DNA of 64,000 nucleotides from contig NZ_OBDO01000002.1 in the NCBI RefSeq assembly GCF_900215145.1, positions 434,001 through 498,000 of the forward strand, in the 5' to 3' direction. Every line of letters begins with the position of its first letter. Position 1 is the stretch's first letter. Shown here one piece after another: positions 5,914-55,780 of the stretch. This DNA comes from Geodermatophilus sabuli. GTDB taxonomy: Bacteria > Actinomycetota > Actinomycetes > Mycobacteriales > Geodermatophilaceae. Below the pieces are notes generated by a model, which saw only the letters and a program-made list of their open reading frames with translations, ran no database searches and was not told where the DNA came from. A program made the translations under genes and the position numbers.

Positions 5914-6903
5914 TCAGGCGCCGAAGAGCTGGGTCCACCAGGGGCCGCCGGGCCCCTCGGCCACGCCCACGCCCAGCTTGGTGAGCTCGCAGTCGAGGAT
6001 GTTGGCCCGGTGGCCGGAGCTGGTCATCCAGTCCTCCATCACCGCGGCCGCGTCGGGCTGGCCGTAGGCGATGTTCTCCGCGCGTGCGTAGCCGACGCCG
6101 GCCTTCTCGGCCCGGTCGAAGGGGGAGAGGCCCTCCGGCGTGTCGTGCGAGAAGTAGTCGCGGTCGCGCATGTCGGCGCTGTGCGCCCGGGCGACGGCGG
6201 CCAGCGCGCTGTCGGCGACGAGGGGTGCGCAGCCGGCGGTGGCGCGAGCCTGGTTCACCAGCGTCAGGACCTGTCCCTCGGTGCCCGGGGCGGCCAGCGC
6301 GGCGGGGGCGGCCCGCGGCGCGGGAGCCGGGGCGGGGGCGGCCCGCGGCGCGGGAGCCGGGGCGGGAGCCGGGGACGTGGCGGACCCCGGTCGCTCGGGG
6401 CTCTCCTCGGCCTTCTGCTCGGCGGGCTCGGCGGGCTCGGCGGGCTCGGCGGGCTCGGCGGGCGCGGTGGGCTCCGACGCCGAGGTGGTCTCGCCGGCAG
6501 CCGCTGCGGGCGCGGCGCTCTCCTCCGACGGCTCGGCGGCGGGCGCCGCGGGCGGTGCAGGGGACTCCGCCGGGGCCTCGGCGGCGGGGGCGCCGTCCAC
6601 GCCCATCTGCACCGTGCCGCCCCCGGACGTCGACGGGGCGGACGACGTCCGGCCCGAGCGTGCCGCGCCCGAGGAGGCCGCGCCCGCGGCCGCGGCGGAC
6701 TCCAGGGCGGCGCGCTCCGAGGAGCTGGTCACGACGCTCGACACCACCGGGACGGCGAACGCGATGCCCGCGACCGCGAGGACCACCGCCAAGACCGGCA
6801 GGACGCGGCGCAGGCCGAACGCGCGGGTGAGGACGGAGACCCAGCGGCCGAGCGCTGCGGCGATCCGCGAGGAAGGCGGGCGACCCGCCGGCATGTGGTG
6901 CAC
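5914..6903 (-). CDS. Membrane-anchored CAP (SCP/PR-1) domain protein
   Basis: A 329-residue protein with an Arg-rich cytosolic start, one membrane helix (RRVLPVLAVVLAVAGIAFAV), about 145 residues of low-complexity Ala/Pro/Glu linker, and a C-terminal CAP domain of about 120 residues. The CAP domain shows LVNQARATAGCAPLV, ARAHSADMRDRDYFSHDTPEG with the conserved His and Glu positions, AENIAYG and SSGHRANILD, as in YkwD-like proteins. Two linker Cys in the domain (GCAPL and LDCEL) can form a disulfide. The linker DNA holds tandem repeats, a 30-bp unit twice (6301-6360) and a 9-bp unit about five times (6421-6465). The GTG start has GAGGG seven bases upstream; a frame extending to 6966 lacks one. 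Role unknown; probably extracytoplasmic. Confidence 0.82.
   Translation of the reverse strand: MHHMPAGRPPSSRIAAALGRWVSVLTRAFGLRRVLPVLAVVLAVAGIAFAVPVVSSVVTSSSERAALESAAAAGAASSGAARSGRTSSAPSTSGGGTVQMGVDGAPAAEAPAESPAPPAAPAAEPSEESAAPAAAAGETTSASEPTAPAEPAEPAEPAEPAEQKAEESPERPGSATSPAPAPAPAPRAAPAPAPAPRAAPAALAAPGTEGQVLTLVNQARATAGCAPLVADSALAAVARAHSADMRDRDYFSHDTPEGLSPFDRAEKAGVGYARAENIAYGQPDAAAVMEDWMTSSGHRANILDCELTKLGVGVAEGPGGPWWTQLFGA
6301..6465. repeat. Intragenic tandem repeats in the CAP-protein linker
   Basis: Two exact 30-bp copies (encoding a Pro-Ala-rich decapeptide with RAA) at 6301-6330 and 6331-6360 with a partial third, and four exact plus one imperfect copies of GGCGGGCTC at 6421-6465 (encoding Ala-Glu-Pro). 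The units are multiples of three, so copy number can change without a frameshift. Confidence 0.85.
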
Positions 6904-22101: not shown

Positions 22102-23010
22102 GTGACACGAACGCCCGCCGCGACCGCGACCGCGCCCGGTGCGGTGCATCCCGCGACGCCCCTGGATCCCGACGCCGCCATCTCGGTGCGCGGCCTGGTC
22201 AAGCGCTACGGCGACAGCACCGCCGTCGCCGGCCTGGACCTCGACATCCGGCGGGGGGAGATCTTCGCCCTGCTCGGCCCGAACGGCGCCGGGAAGACCA
22301 CCACGGTCGAGGTGCTCGAGGGGTACCGGCAGCGCGACGGCGGCGACGTCCGGGTGCTGGGCGTGGACCCCGCGACCGGCGGGCGGCGCTGGAAGGCCGA
22401 CATCGGCATCGTGCTGCAGTCCGGCGGCGGTGACAGCCAGCTGACCTGCCTGGAGCTGCTGCGGGCCCAGGCGTCCTACTACGCCGATCCCCGAGACCCG
22501 GCGGAGGTGCTCGAGTTGGTCGGGCTCACCGAGAAGGCGGGCGCGCGCGGCCGCACGCTGTCCGGGGGGCAGCGGCGCCGGCTCGACGTCGCCCTCGGCA
22601 TCGTCGGCCGCCCCCGGCTGCTGTTCCTCGACGAGCCGACCACGGGTTTCGACCCGGAGGCCCGCCGCCAGTTCTGGTCGCTGATCCGGTCCCTGCGCGA
22701 CCTGGGGACGACGATGTTGCTGACCACCCACTACCTGGACGAGGCCGAGGAGCTGGCCGACCGGGTGGGTGTCATCGCCCGCGGCCGGCTGGTCGAGGTG
22801 GCCGTGCCCGCCGAGCTGGGCGGGCGGGGGCAGGCCCCCGCGGTCGTCTCCTGGACCGAGGACGGCGTGCGGCGCACCGCCGAGACCGTCGGCCCGACCG
22901 CGTTCGTGCGGGAGCTGGCCACCCGTTTCCCGGGAGAGGTGCCCGACCTCGCCGTCGCCCGGCCCACCCTCGAGGACGTGTACCTGCGCATGATCGGAGA
23001 GCCGGCATGA
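22102..23010 (+). CDS. ABC-2 type exporter, ATP-binding protein
   Basis: A 302-residue ATPase of a two-gene ABC exporter. Walker A is GPNGAGKTTT, the signature LSGGQRRRLDVALGI, Walker B LLFLDEPTTGFDPEA, and the switch His follows in LLTTHYLDEAEEL. The C-terminal 70 residues form the usual DrrA-like accessory part. It is preceded by a 60-bp gap from deoA with GGAGAGGA upstream of the GTG, so it may be transcribed with the nucleoside cluster or on its own. Substrate unknown; similar pairs are annotated for daunorubicin-like drugs or lipids without direct proof. Confidence 0.9.
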   Translation: MTRTPAATATAPGAVHPATPLDPDAAISVRGLVKRYGDSTAVAGLDLDIRRGEIFALLGPNGAGKTTTVEVLEGYRQRDGGDVRVLGVDPATGGRRWKADIGIVLQSGGGDSQLTCLELLRAQASYYADPRDPAEVLELVGLTEKAGARGRTLSGGQRRRLDVALGIVGRPRLLFLDEPTTGFDPEARRQFWSLIRSLRDLGTTMLLTTHYLDEAEELADRVGVIARGRLVEVAVPAELGGRGQAPAVVSWTEDGVRRTAETVGPTAFVRELATRFPGEVPDLAVARPTLEDVYLRMIGEPA

Positions 23011-23816
23011 CGGCGACCACGGAGCGCTCGCTGCCCTCGGTCGGCAGCGTGTGGCGCACGCGCGGCGGGGTCGAGCTCAAGGAGTTCTTCCGTCAGCGCG
23101 AGTCGGTGGTCTTCACCCTCGCGTTCCCGGTGATCCTCCTGGTCGTCTTCGGGGCGGTCCTCGACTACGACATCGGCGGCGGCGTCACCTTCACCCAGTA
23201 CTTCATGGCCGGGATCGTCGCCGCGGGCATCCTGGGCGCCAGCCTGCAGAACATGGCGATCAGCATCGCCACCGAGCGGTCCGACGGGACCCTCAAGCAC
23301 CTGTCCGGCACCCCGATGCCGAAGAGCGCCTACTTCGTCGGCAAGGTCGTGCAGGTCCTCGCGGTCACCGTGCTGATCGTGGTGATCCTGCTGGCGGTCG
23401 GCCGGCTGGCCTACGGCGTCGTGCTGCCGTCGGGCAGCGACTGGATTACCTTCGTGTGGGTCACCGCGCTGGGGTCGTCGGCGTGCACGCTGCTGGGCAT
23501 CGCCGTCTCCAGCCTGGCCAAGAACGGCCGCTCGGCCTCGGCGATGGTCACCCCGATCGCGCTGGTCTTGCAGTTCATCTCCGGTGTCTTCTTCCAGTTC
23601 AGCCAGGTGCCGACGTGGATGCAGACGATCGCCGCCCTGTTCCCGCTGAAGTGGATGGCGCAGGGTCTCCGGTCGGTGTTCCTGCCCGACGCCCTGGCGG
23701 CGGCGGAACCGGCCGGCAGCTGGGAGCTCGGCCGGGTCGCTCTCGTGCTGGGCATCTGGTGCATCGTCGGACTCGCGCTGTGCGTCAAGACCTTCCGCTG
23801 GCAGGACCGCGGCTGA
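23007..23816 (+). CDS. ABC-2 type exporter, permease
   Basis: A 269-residue membrane protein with six hydrophobic segments, including VVFTLAFPVILLVVFGAVL, VLAVTVLIVVILLAVGRLAY, MVTPIALVLQFISGVFF and VALVLGIWCIVGLALCV. The family blocks LKHLSGTPMPKSAYFVGK and PLKWMAQGLRSVFLP match ABC-2 membrane proteins (DrrB-like). It overlaps the ATPase gene by four bases and forms a two-component exporter with it. A hairpin follows its stop. Confidence 0.88.
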   Translation: MTATTERSLPSVGSVWRTRGGVELKEFFRQRESVVFTLAFPVILLVVFGAVLDYDIGGGVTFTQYFMAGIVAAGILGASLQNMAISIATERSDGTLKHLSGTPMPKSAYFVGKVVQVLAVTVLIVVILLAVGRLAYGVVLPSGSDWITFVWVTALGSSACTLLGIAVSSLAKNGRSASAMVTPIALVLQFISGVFFQFSQVPTWMQTIAALFPLKWMAQGLRSVFLPDALAAAEPAGSWELGRVALVLGIWCIVGLALCVKTFRWQDRG

Positions 23817-23823
23817 GTGCTCC

Positions 23824-23841
23824 GTCGTCCTACCGGACGAC
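23824..23841 (+). terminator. Hairpin after the ABC-2 exporter genes
   Basis: GTCGTCC-TACC-GGACGAC, a perfect 7-bp stem 8 nt after the permease stop, directly before the 86-bp tandem repeats. Confidence 0.5.
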
Positions 23842-23843
23842 AC

Positions 23844-24072
23844 CGCGGCCAGGTGCCGTCCCTGGTTGCCGTGGAGCCCTCCCCGTGTCCCGGTCGGGAG
23901 GCCCTCCGGGCCTCCGCGACCGGTCCACCCGCGGCCAGGTGCCGTTCCCGGTTGCCGTGGAGCCCTCCCCGTGTCCCGGTCGGGAGGCCCTCCGGGCCTC
24001 CGCGACCGGTCCACCCGCGGCCAGGTGCCGTCCCCGAGCTGCGCTGGGCCGTCCCGTGTCCCGGTCGAGGCC
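23844..24072. repeat. 86-bp tandem repeat with strong internal hairpins
   Basis: Two near-identical 86-bp units start at 23844 and 23930 (two differences seen by eye) and a third, degenerate and shorter unit starts at 24016. Each complete unit contains a 15-bp hairpin stem with one bulged G: CCGGTCG+GGAGGCCC, loop TCC, GGGCCTCC+G+CGACCGG, at 23890-23923 and 23976-24009. The third unit keeps the left part but has lost the hairpin. The array fills the 307-bp gap between the exporter and add; no reading frame within it looks real. Confidence 0.9.
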
Positions 24073-24111
24073 GGGTGGCGTCCCCGGCGCGAGTCGGCGC
24101 GCGGGGCGGAC

Positions 24112-24117
24112 GACAAT
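24112..24117 (+). promoter_or_regulatory. -10-like element for leaderless add
   Basis: GACAAT, 6 nt before the add GTG, with no Shine-Dalgarno. It resembles TANAAT except for the first base. Confidence 0.4.
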
Positions 24118-24123
24118 GACTCG

Positions 24124-25197
24124 GTGCCTGCACCTCTCGACGCCGCCTCCCTCCGCCGGGCCCCGAAGGTCCTCCTGCACGACCACCTCGACGGCGGGCT
24201 GCGGCCGCAGACGGTGCTCGAGCTCGCCGACGACTGCGGCTACCGCGACCTGCCCACCGACGACGCCGACGAGCTGGGCCGCTGGTTCCAGGCGGCGGCC
24301 GACTCCGGCTCGCTGGAGCGGTACCTGGAGACCTTCGCGCACACCGTCGCGGTGATGCAGCGGTCCGACGCGGTGCGGCGGGTGGCCCGGGAGTGCGCCC
24401 TCGACCTCGCCGCGGACGGCGTGGTCTACGCCGAGATCCGCATGGCGCCGGAGCTGCTGACCGCCATGCCGATGGACGCGGCGGTCGAGGCGATGCTCGA
24501 CGGCTACGCCCAGGGTGCCCGGGAGGCCGCCGAGGCCGGCACCCCGATCACCGTCGGCACCCTGCTGTGCGCCATGCGGCAGAACGACCGGTGGGACGAG
24601 GTGGCCGAGCTCGTCGTCCGCCACCGGGACGGCGGCGTGGTCGGCTTCGACCTCGCCGGCCCGGAGGACGGCTTCCCGCCCGACCGGCACCCGTCGGCGA
24701 TCGCGCTGCTGGACCGGACCGGCGCGCACCGCACCGTCCACGCCGGCGAGGCGGCCGGCATCGACAGCATCGTGGCCGCCCTGGACGGCGCCCGCGCCGA
24801 ACGGCTGGGCCACGGCGTCCGCATCGCCGACCAGGTCGCCGCCGACGGGTCGCTGGGCCCGGTGGCCGAGCGGGTCCGCGACGAGCAGGTGACCCTGGAG
24901 GTCGCGCCGTCGTCCAACGTGCAGACCGGCGCCTACCCCTCGCTGGCCGAGCACCCGGTGGGCCGGTTGCACCGGCTGGGCTTCGCGGTCACGGTCAACA
25001 CCGACAACCGGCTGATGAGCGGGGTCTCGGTGACCAGCGAGCTCGCCGACGTGGTCGCCACCTGCGGCTGGGACTGGGACGACGTCCAGGCGGTCGCCGA
25101 GCGCGCACTCGCCGCGGCGTTCGTCGACGAGACGGAGCGGGCGCGGCTGCTGGCCGACGTCGTCCGGCCCGGGTACGCCGCGCTGCGGCAGGGCTGA
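24124..25197 (+). CDS. add: Adenosine deaminase
   Basis: A 357-residue zinc enzyme converting adenosine/deoxyadenosine to inosine/deoxyinosine, the substrates of PNP further down. Zinc ligands are in LLHDHLDGGLRP (H-x-H; the family usually has HxHLDG) and the later His positions in TVHAGEAAG (catalytic Glu) and RLGHGVR. The catalytic Asp is in TVNTDNRLMSG, where adenosine deaminases read (N/C)(T/S)DN/DP; the DN form is common in actinobacteria. Length is normal. GTG 24124 was chosen because it opens the conserved domain closely and is preceded by a -10-like hexamer. The stop codon lies in an exact 25-bp tandem duplication. Confidence 0.93.
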   Translation: MPAPLDAASLRRAPKVLLHDHLDGGLRPQTVLELADDCGYRDLPTDDADELGRWFQAAADSGSLERYLETFAHTVAVMQRSDAVRRVARECALDLAADGVVYAEIRMAPELLTAMPMDAAVEAMLDGYAQGAREAAEAGTPITVGTLLCAMRQNDRWDEVAELVVRHRDGGVVGFDLAGPEDGFPPDRHPSAIALLDRTGAHRTVHAGEAAGIDSIVAALDGARAERLGHGVRIADQVAADGSLGPVAERVRDEQVTLEVAPSSNVQTGAYPSLAEHPVGRLHRLGFAVTVNTDNRLMSGVSVTSELADVVATCGWDWDDVQAVAERALAAAFVDETERARLLADVVRPGYAALRQG

Positions 25198-25226
25198 GGT
25201 GGCCGCGCTGCGGCAGGGCTGAGGTG
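25177..25226. repeat. Exact 25-bp tandem duplication over the add stop codon
   Basis: The unit GCCGCGCTGCGGCAGGGCTG followed by AGGTG occurs twice head to tail (25177-25201 and 25202-25226). The first copy contains the end of add and its TGA, so the second is untranslated and the protein is unaffected. Confidence 0.92.
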
Positions 25227-25308
25227 ACGGCGCACACCCCGCTCTCGGGAATCGCGCCGCGATCTCCGCTGCTAACCTAGGCGTACCGGCACTCAGGCCG
25301 GTCATCCT

Positions 25309-53656: not shown

Positions 53657-55780
53657 GTGACCGCTCGCCGCCGTCCCCCCACCCGGCTGCTCGTGCTCGC
53701 CACCGCAGCGGCCGCCGTCCTGCCGGTCCTCCCCGCCCTGCCGGCGGCCGCGGACGACGCGGCTCCCCGCGGTGAGACCGTCGTCGGCGAACTGGTGCAG
53801 GCCTGGCCGGAACCCGCCTCCCCCGGCGCGGCCGTCCGCCACGCCGACGAGGGGCCGCTCAGCTGGATCGAGACGGCGCCGGGCGAGGCCGTCCGGGTGC
53901 CGACCGACGACGTCGACCACCTGCCCGTCGGCGCCACGGTGGAGGTGGTCGTCGGGGAGCCGGTGGCCGACCGGACGCCGGCTGCGGCGGCCCTGGAACC
54001 GGCCGTGGAGGTGCTCGCCGCCGACGTCGTGGCGGCCGCGCCGGCCGCTCCACGGGTGGCCGCGGCGGACGGCGTCACCAACGCCGTCACCGTCGTCATG
54101 GTGCTGCCCCCGGGGTCGGCGCCGGACGCGACGAGCCTGGCGGACCTGGTCTCGGCGGTCGACGGTCCCGTGGCCGACTTCTGGGCCCGGCAGAGCGACG
54201 GCGCCCTCCGGCTCCGCGTCACCGGCTCGTCGGGGTGGTTGCCCACCTCCGCCGGGTGCGACTCCCCCTACGCGCTGTGGAACGAGGCGGCCGCCCGCGT
54301 CGGGTGGCGCGGCGGCCCCGGCCAGCACCTGTTGGTCCACCTGCCGTCGACGGCGGGCGGCTGCTCCGCGGGACTGGCCGAGGTCGGGAGTTCGATCTCC
54401 TCCGGGGGCCGGCTCTACGTGCGCGGCACGGCCACCTCCGTGCTGGCGCACGAGCTCGGGCACAACTTCGGCCTCGGACACGCCTCCCAGCTGCAGTGCG
54501 ACGGTGCCGTGGAGACAGGCGCGTGCCGGGTCGCCGGGTACGCCGACTGGTACGACGTCATGGGGGTCTCCTGGGACCAGCTCGGCTCGCTCGGCGCACC
54601 GCACGCCGCCCGGCTCGGGCTGCTGCCGCCGGGGGCGGTGCCCACGGTCTCCGCCGCGGCACCCGCCGGGCAGTTCCTGCTCTCGCCGTTGGGGGCCCGC
54701 ACGGGGTCCCGGGCGGTGCGCCTGCTCGACGGCGACGGTGACGAGTACTGGCTGGAGTACCGGTCGGCGACCGGCCAGGACAGCTGGCTGGGGACGGCGG
54801 CCAACCGTCGCCGGCTCGAGTCCGGTGTCGTGCTCCGGCTCGCTCGCGACGGCAACGACACCTCCCTGCTCCTCGACGCGACGCCGTCGCGGACCGCGCT
54901 CTGGGCCGGCGACGTGGCCGTGGCGCTGCCCGCCGGCGGCGCTCCGGTGTCGTTCGGGGACGCGCGGTTCACCGTCCGGGTGCTGGAGGCGACCGGGTCA
55001 GGGGCGCGGATCCAGGTCGAGACCGGGCAGGCGGGTCCGGTGTCGGCTCCTCCAGGGACCGGCGGGACCGGCGGGACCGGCGGGATCGGGGGGACGGGGA
55101 GCACGTACTTCCTGAACGACCGGTTCACCGGGGTGGCCAACCGTGTCTTCCACTACGGCGGCCCGGCCGACGACGTGCTCGTCGGTGACTGGAACGGCGA
55201 CGGGGTGGACACCCTCACGGTCCGCCGGGGGAACACCTTCCACGTCCGCGAGCAGAACACCAGTGGTGCCGCCGACCACGTCTTCGCGTACGGGGACCCC
55301 GGCGACGCGGTCCTGGTGGGGGACTGGGACGGCGACGGCCGGGACACGCTCGCGGTGCGCCGGGGCAACCGCTACTTCGTCACGAACTCCGTGCGGACCG
55401 GGGCGGCCGACGTCGTGATCACCTACGGCGACCCGGGGGACGTCGTCCTGGTGGGGGACTGGGACGGTGACGGCGCGGACAGCCTGACGGTGCGGCGGGG
55501 CGCGTACTACCACGTGAAGAACGGGCTGAGCACCGGCGTGGCCGACAGCACCTTCGGCTACGGCGAGCCGCAGGACACCGTGCTGGTGGGTCGCTGGGGC
55601 GCGGGTCAGCGCGGCGACACGCTGGCCGTCCGGCGGGGCGCGGTCTACCACCTGCGGTTCAGCCTCACCTCGGGCGTCGCGGACCTCCAGGCGGCCTACG
55701 GCGACCCCGCGGACACCGCCTTCTCCGGCGACTGGGACGCCGACGGCGTGGACACCCTCGGGGTCCGGCGTCCCGGCTGA
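53657..55780 (+). CDS. Secreted zinc metalloprotease with C-terminal repeat domain
   Basis: A 707-residue paralogue of the preceding protease: same N-terminal block (GETVVGELVQAWPEP), the same zinc motif HELGHNFGLGHAS and Met-turn (WYDVMGVSW). In place of a membrane anchor it has a Gly/Thr linker and five repeats of about 45 residues (YG-P-D-VLVGDW(N/D)GDG-DTL-VRRG), of the Asp-rich FG-GAP/VCBS-like type that forms calcium-binding beta-propellers or cell-surface binding modules. The fourth repeat has lost the Asp-rich loop (GRWGAGQRGD). The start is GTG 53657, with GGAG seven bases upstream and directly before the signal peptide (RLLVLATAAAAVLPVLPALP); a GTG overlapping the upstream stop is possible but would place 28 residues before it. 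Confidence 0.88.
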   Translation: MTARRRPPTRLLVLATAAAAVLPVLPALPAAADDAAPRGETVVGELVQAWPEPASPGAAVRHADEGPLSWIETAPGEAVRVPTDDVDHLPVGATVEVVVGEPVADRTPAAAALEPAVEVLAADVVAAAPAAPRVAAADGVTNAVTVVMVLPPGSAPDATSLADLVSAVDGPVADFWARQSDGALRLRVTGSSGWLPTSAGCDSPYALWNEAAARVGWRGGPGQHLLVHLPSTAGGCSAGLAEVGSSISSGGRLYVRGTATSVLAHELGHNFGLGHASQLQCDGAVETGACRVAGYADWYDVMGVSWDQLGSLGAPHAARLGLLPPGAVPTVSAAAPAGQFLLSPLGARTGSRAVRLLDGDGDEYWLEYRSATGQDSWLGTAANRRRLESGVVLRLARDGNDTSLLLDATPSRTALWAGDVAVALPAGGAPVSFGDARFTVRVLEATGSGARIQVETGQAGPVSAPPGTGGTGGTGGIGGTGSTYFLNDRFTGVANRVFHYGGPADDVLVGDWNGDGVDTLTVRRGNTFHVREQNTSGAADHVFAYGDPGDAVLVGDWDGDGRDTLAVRRGNRYFVTNSVRTGAADVVITYGDPGDVVLVGDWDGDGADSLTVRRGAYYHVKNGLSTGVADSTFGYGEPQDTVLVGRWGAGQRGDTLAVRRGAVYHLRFSLTSGVADLQAAYGDPADTAFSGDWDADGVDTLGVRRPG

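Follow-up and report, generated by a model that had tools for sequence, protein, structure and literature searches.

A dispersed, hairpin-bearing repeat of Geodermatophilaceae in the gap between an exporter gene and add

What is the tandem array that separates an exporter gene from the adenosine deaminase gene add in Geodermatophilus sabuli, and is it a local duplication or one copy of something larger? We analysed a window of 64,000 nucleotides (positions 434,001 to 498,000 of contig NZ_OBDO01000002.1), whose positions are used below and in which the two genes and the parts of the array lie on the forward strand. The gene for an ABC-2 type exporter permease (23007..23816; Pfam PF01061/PF12698) ends in a TGA at 23814-23816, and add (PF00962, E = 3.2e-91) occupies 24124..25197. 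The array between them (23843-24067; period 86, 2.6 copies and 92% matches by Tandem Repeats Finder) consists of two 86-bp units (23843..23928 and 23929..24014) that differ at 2 of 86 positions (98% identity), and of a third, partial and decayed unit (24015..24067) with the core plus CCCGTGTCCCGGTCG and without a full hairpin H3. Of this third unit, the first 41 nt are conserved at 76% and a 15-nt block at 100%. Each intact unit carries a bulged hairpin, H3 (23885-23928 and 23971-24014), whose stem in unit 1 has 15 bp with one bulged base and is extended by 3 outer pairs (RNA folding z = -3.6, with 0 of 200 shuffles equally stable). Up to this point our analysis bears out an earlier, sequence-only reading, which had described two near-identical units and a decayed third in this gap, each intact unit with a strong bulged hairpin. 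That reading missed the dispersal of the repeat family and a leader hairpin, H1 (23824..23841; 7-bp stem GTCGTCC/GGACGAC, loop TACC), which lies 7 nt 3' of the exporter stop codon and scores 69.8 bits with our covariance model R1. Directly after H1 comes a conserved core, ACCGCGGCCAGGTGCCGTCC (23842..23861; alignments A1 and A2), which has dispersed copies and contains a small hairpin, H2 (CGGC-CAGGT-GCCG, 23846-23858). Other tandem repeats of the window are a 25-bp repeat (2.3 copies, 25177-25233) across the end and stop codon of add, a 135-bp repeat at 55153-55590 (3.2 copies, 70% matches), and a perfect 30-bp repeat (2.2 copies, 6301-6366) with a 9-bp repeat just 3' of it (6.4 copies, 6417-6474).

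The 86-bp unit does not stand alone: it is the part that can expand, at the tail of a larger element composed of leader H1, core and H3 unit, whose basic form has a median length of about 125 bp. Uniqueness of the unit to the exporter-add locus was rejected, as a search of the 5.5-Mb genome of the same strain gave 27 DNA-level matches at E ≤ 0.001 and 25 leaders of at least 44 bits with R1, and relatives carry the element too. Among 21 loci of this genome printed with their flanks, all 20 with a visible 5' end begin in an H1-type hairpin, mostly at or a few bases 3' of the stop codon of the preceding gene, and H1 is followed by ACCGCGGCCAGGTGCCGTCC or a near variant in 19 of these 20 arrays, the core being altered at the remaining one (L041). 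The loop of H1, TACC in the window, is CACC or TCC elsewhere, and the 5' flank beside H1 has the consensus TGACAYC. A variable stretch with GAGCC and then H3 follow 3' of the core, and core plus H3 form the repeating part, which is present in 1-4 units per locus at the 21 loci (partial units counted), with unit lengths from 84 to 118 (e.g., 86 and 88). In this genome the median identity between units is 98.6% within an array and 79.4% between arrays, in agreement with the recent duplication or gene conversion that the sequence-only reading had proposed for the window; the units of a locus would be alike because the core and H3 unit grows or shrinks in place by tandem duplication, to as many as nine cores. 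The longest array (L146:622-1386) has nine cores, the leader's and eight more, with a 90-bp period; at another locus (L037, G000:C9, near 266170-266243) the leader hairpin itself appears by eye to be tandemly duplicated ahead of the core. Two contigs of the same assembly, C4 (L040:1-258) and C5 (L044:18-210), both begin in an array of this type and may be neighbours joined by a longer one, and contigs of relatives (L012 and L013) likewise end in such arrays. Copy numbers are therefore unreliable, and remain uncertain without long reads.

Comparison of the leaders shows that the pairing of H1 is maintained. In 21 leaders, aligned as trimmed sequences and excluding L041, whose core differs, every H1 cell pairs, and both sides have changed at 3 of the 7 pairs. 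Over the whole leader structure, 99.6% of cells are paired (89.0% in shuffled alignments), 23 cells have changed on both sides (7.6 shuffled), and the covariation score is 0.280 (0.094 shuffled), each of which was reached by 0 of 500 shuffles; the number of both-sided pairs and the number of further pair types were not above shuffles (433 and 486 of 500, respectively). At 124 of 146 sites that were anchored only on the 3' arm and the core, all 7 Watson-Crick pairs of H1 are present, with 9 different 3' arms, compared to 21% for shuffled arms, and thus the pairing is maintained through compensatory change. The pairing of H2, which hardly varies, has no covariation support for that reason. A family-wide strong H3 was not borne out, the structure being modest: its median z is -0.71, z ≤ -2 occurs in 20 of 112 elements vs. 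9 of 127 control stretches, and perfect hairpins 3' of the core are near chance (27 vs. 23.6 expected), with a CCTCCGG apex predicted 60 times over the 112 elements. Nothing in Rfam exceeded its gathering score, the only match being Scr2736 (18.3 bits vs. a gathering score of 43).

In the sampled genomes the element is restricted to one bacterial family. At E ≤ 1e-8, leaders were found in all 26 genomes of the genus and in 8 of 11 from the rest of the Geodermatophilaceae (34 of 37), single-contig assemblies among them, and in none of 24 genomes from other families of the order. The three Geodermatophilaceae genomes with no strong match are G029, G032 and G034. A class-wide sample, in which 15 candidates per genome were scored under strict filters, had leaders at this threshold in 2 of 394 genomes, both Geodermatophilaceae, and in none of the other 392. 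At E ≤ 0.01, the model gave 15-101 matches per genome in all 26 genomes of the genus, a range that includes internal units and weak matches, and weak matches in 23 of the 24 genomes from outside the family; the DNA query gave weak matches in 4 of these 24, and both sets were taken as chance. Scanning named genomes for the leader pattern yielded at least 113 stretches, which favour intact elements because they were chosen by an exact pattern, and all 80 of the 80 records listed belong to Geodermatophilus, Blastococcus, Modestobacter or a 'Geodermatophilaceae bacterium'. A phage, plasmid or viral origin was rejected, as the element had no match in plasmid and phage collections and no viral contig carried the exact leader pattern. 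We found no description of this repeat family in a literature search.

We consider it likely, with a probability of roughly 0.7, that the array in the window belongs to an interspersed repeat of the whole family, non-autonomous and hairpin-bearing, whose behaviour resembles that of REP elements and mycobacterial MIRUs. The basic element would be repeatedly gained, and lost, mostly in gaps with at least one gene 3' end, and would spread by a transposition-like copying that recognises H1 as RNA or as single-stranded DNA; any influence of its hairpins on transcript 3' ends would be local and mild at most.

We then compared the positions of the elements to the genes around them. Leaders with at most 3 core mismatches were kept (158 in real vs. 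1 in reversed sequence; at 4-5 mismatches, 28 vs. 18), and genes were taken from a codon-usage caller, to which RNA genes are invisible and were added separately. After exclusion of 4 leaders with less than 150 nt upstream, 154 remained, of which 12 lay inside a called ORF and were set aside, 117 followed a gene on the same strand and 25 a gene on the opposite strand. Where both neighbours of same-strand cases were known, H1 lay within 22 nt of the stop codon in 87 of 110; in 39 of the 117 it lay exactly 4 nt behind the stop codon, so that the TGA of TGACAYC is the stop of the host gene. Element-bearing gaps were convergent in 64 cases, codirectional in 61 and divergent in 5, compared to 10.9%, 51.8% and 37.4%, respectively, of the element-free intergenic bases of the same loci. 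Four of the 5 divergent cases lie just 3' of an RNA gene, tRNA-Leu(caa) in L080 and L111 and SRP RNA in L081 and L167, and two loci from relatives (L205 and L216) have the element at the same two RNA genes. With the far (3') boundary estimated from similarity between elements in 127 gaps, the median distances before and after the element were 6 and 5 nt in convergent gaps, 7 and 42 nt in codirectional gaps with a sense element, and 23.5 and 11 nt in codirectional gaps with an antisense element. Both ends of the element abut stop codons, and the start-codon side alone leaves room for expression signals; a special targeting of stop codons by the 5' end, which the distances had suggested, was rejected since both ends do so. 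The adjacency to stop codons may come largely from short gaps plus selection. Collapsing by upstream flank gave 91 clusters (44 convergent, 26 sense, 17 antisense and 4 divergent), and an apparent bias towards the sense orientation (41 vs. 20 uncollapsed) was not significant once orthologues were collapsed (26 vs. 17, p = 0.22). At four loci (L194, L080 near 1646, L111 near 5036, and L148), an antisense element lies just 5' of what look by eye like leaderless promoters, with TAnnnT 6-7 nt before the start codon.

These positions bear on a first alternative, which we regard as unlikely: that the element is a cis-acting RNA module under selection, a 3'-end processing or termination element without a U-tract, which in the window would block read-through from the exporter into add. 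Its location 3' of stop codons and of the tRNA-Leu and SRP RNA ends, its under-representation in divergent gaps, the conserved pairing of H1 and the strong fold in the window are all consistent with such a module. However, with only 25 leaders in 5.5 Mb and no trace in 18 of 26 orthologous exporter-add gaps, the element is not a general terminator, nor one that this locus requires; it occurs in both orientations in codirectional gaps, its H3 is modest across the family, and no U-tailed terminator (a G+C-rich hairpin followed by a T run) is present in 23500-24400. The sequence-only reading had also raised a transcription barrier that isolates add, or a role in RNA stability; shielding of add from exporter read-through is possible, and sequence alone decides for or against neither of these two roles. 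A candidate -10 box read by eye (GACAAT, 24112..24117), 6 nt before the GTG of add, suggests that add may be leaderless and have a promoter of its own 3' of the array; some orthologues that lack the element have a similar box in the corresponding position, and a scan with the sigma-70 consensus found no promoter at this box.

Presence at orthologous sites is variable. In the exporter-add gap of the 26 genus genomes (own genome included), we found 4 sense elements, 4 antisense traces and 18 gaps without a trace, assignments that were partly made by eye; thus the element is dispensable there. Full sense elements occur in the genome of the window (G000), in G001 and in G005, and a short sense form resembling H1 plus core was seen by eye in G013; G012 and G017 have an antisense leader with 3 mismatches, and G015 and G025 (loci L050 and L063) carry a leader-like trace in antisense, with 5 mismatches. 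In the latter two loci a TGACAT(C/T) flank of the diverged leader adjoins the start codon of add; two others (L057 and L064) have about 760 nt between exporter and add, room for an extra gene. A unique unit, which would have spoken against the sequence-only reading, is not what the searches show, given the 27 matches in the genome of the window. Between the filled site of G001 and the empty site of G018, where the region is 95% identical over 1.8 kb, the insertion lies directly 3' of the stop codon. We further compared 17 filled loci to their orthologues (of the 20 fetched, L211 and L215 had no leader in the scan and L221 was set aside). Of 55 comparisons, from which two rows with less than 80% flank identity (L245 and L274) had been dropped and among which one G018 site is counted twice (L204), 35 were without the element, including eroded remnants such as L256, 15 had it in the same orientation and 5 in the opposite one, of which three are clean (L237, L236 and L271), one has both orientations (L235) and one, with 5 mismatches, is probably spurious (L275). 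Since 15 of the 55 comparisons share the site across species, part of the distribution reflects vertical descent. At two convergent gene pairs (L209/L237 and L218/L271), the element lies 3' of one gene in one species and 3' of its partner in a second species. The filled gene of L214 is one codon shorter than its empty orthologue (L259) and ends in the TGA of the element. Not every gap looks cleanly interrupted: at some loci (e.g., L206) its sequence seems to have been exchanged.

An element that is short, generally non-coding and variably present beside coding ends would also fit a MITE, in which an ordinary DDE insertion sequence has been reduced by deletion and is moved in trans through its terminal inverted repeats, although we think this quite improbable. 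In the printed loci we noticed neither a terminal inverted repeat linking one end to the other nor a target-site duplication, and neither was noticed in the comparisons of filled and empty sites, in most of which the flanks are too diverged for exact junctions; furthermore, the ends are asymmetric, with the leader on one side and the expandable units on the other.

Another alternative, very unlikely in our estimate, is a coding repeat of the MIRU type, in which a small ORF of the element couples the flanking genes translationally. An RTGA is present at the 5' end of 71 of 154 leaders, and a 100-codon ORF spans the exporter-add gap and its array, which is unremarkable because sequence of this G+C content is expected to have open frames. 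Over 28 codons, the RTG frame stays open in 0.72 of leaders vs. 0.79 of mononucleotide shuffles, and the other two frames in 0.68 and 0.85, the last being slightly more open than the shuffles; with open frames thus near chance, the element as a coding sequence was rejected. In addition, unit lengths (84 to 118) do not preserve the frame, and 61 of 127 gaps are convergent, where translational coupling is impossible. In two Geodermatophilus genomes (L212 and L255), the element does lie at a GTGA/ATGA stop-start overlap, in frame with the next gene; there it is predicted to form an in-frame N-terminal extension of about 31-41 residues on a small protein, the ORFs (L212:1302-1610 and L255, start at 1723) having 102 and 110 residues compared to 69-71 in three element-free orthologues. 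Finally, the contigs ending in arrays (C4, C5, L012 and L013) might suggest no more than an accidental duplication or an error of assembly, of no significance beyond this locus. This has hardly any probability given that 34 of 37 genomes of the family, single-contig assemblies included, have leaders, and an assembly duplicate in the window is disfavoured because the array is internal to contig C9 and there are 2 differences between its units.

For the interspersed, non-autonomous repeat that we prefer, we searched for a mobiliser and found none: the Y1 transposase domain (PF01797, E ≤ 0.001) was detected in 0 of 57 genomes of the family and in 5 of 14 control genomes, and none was found in the genome of the window. 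Mobilisation by a RAYT or by an IS200/IS605 transposase was accordingly rejected. A more specific version, which we put forward as a tentative and rather doubtful idea, is a RAYT-independent mobile hairpin repeat: a putative enzyme would read H1 together with TGACAYC and insert copies where genes end, be it at a stop codon or at the 3' end of a tRNA or SRP RNA gene, as well as at stop-start overlaps; the copy would often bring the new stop codon with it, and core and H3 would then amplify in place.

To our reading of the literature this is an interspersed hairpin-repeat family, common to one bacterial family, for which our search found no description, and its arrays may serve as variable-number markers in the typing of Geodermatophilus and Blastococcus. 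They also call for care in annotation, as they break assemblies and at one locus are read as the N-terminal extension of a protein. CRISPR finders report 0-7 'questionable' arrays per genome in this family (PMC9686282); as a guess, hairpin arrays of this kind might lie behind such calls.

Among known systems, the element resembles the integron attC site in being a structured site directly 3' of a stop codon; unlike attC sites, the elements had no cassette array that we noticed. MIRUs show tandem copy-number variation. The passages on MIRUs consulted here describe short repeats, apparently mobile, that insert at start codons with an internal ORF coupled to the next gene (PMC12548453). Compared by description, the Geodermatophilaceae element shares with them an actinobacterial host, dispersed tandem repeats, variable copy number and, at L212 and L255, the stop-start overlap, but it is generally non-coding and often lies in convergent gaps, and its model R1 has no match at E ≤ 1e-8 in the other 392 genomes of the class-wide sample.

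There is a close likeness in behaviour to REP elements, which the sequence-only reading had offered as one possibility. In the sections of the REP account used here, these lie mostly between convergent and unidirectional ORFs, the convergent ones less than 20 bp from both 3' ends, and are sometimes intragenic; the phyla given there for the GTAG and CGTC superfamilies do not include Actinobacteria, and untagged REP-like families are mentioned in M. tuberculosis and others (PMC3733652). Measured against those sections, the element is likewise palindromic, extragenic and dispersed, lies near the 3' ends of genes and prefers the same gaps. In contrast to REPs, it has no unpaired GTAG or CGTC tag, with TGACAYC beside H1 instead; a REP is a single palindrome of 20-40 bp, whereas this is a composite of about 125 bp that expands head to tail; and GTAG REPs have a RAYT partner (a Y1 tyrosine transposase), none of which was found in the 57 Geodermatophilaceae genomes. 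Because both tags are absent and the search gave no Y1 transposase, we do not file the family as REP although it works like one, and describe it as an untagged, composite, REP-like repeat family of Geodermatophilaceae. CGTC REPs, too, have no known dedicated transposase in the same sections (PMC3733652), and the family thus provides a case for how REP-like repeats spread without a RAYT, the question that CGTC REPs leave open.
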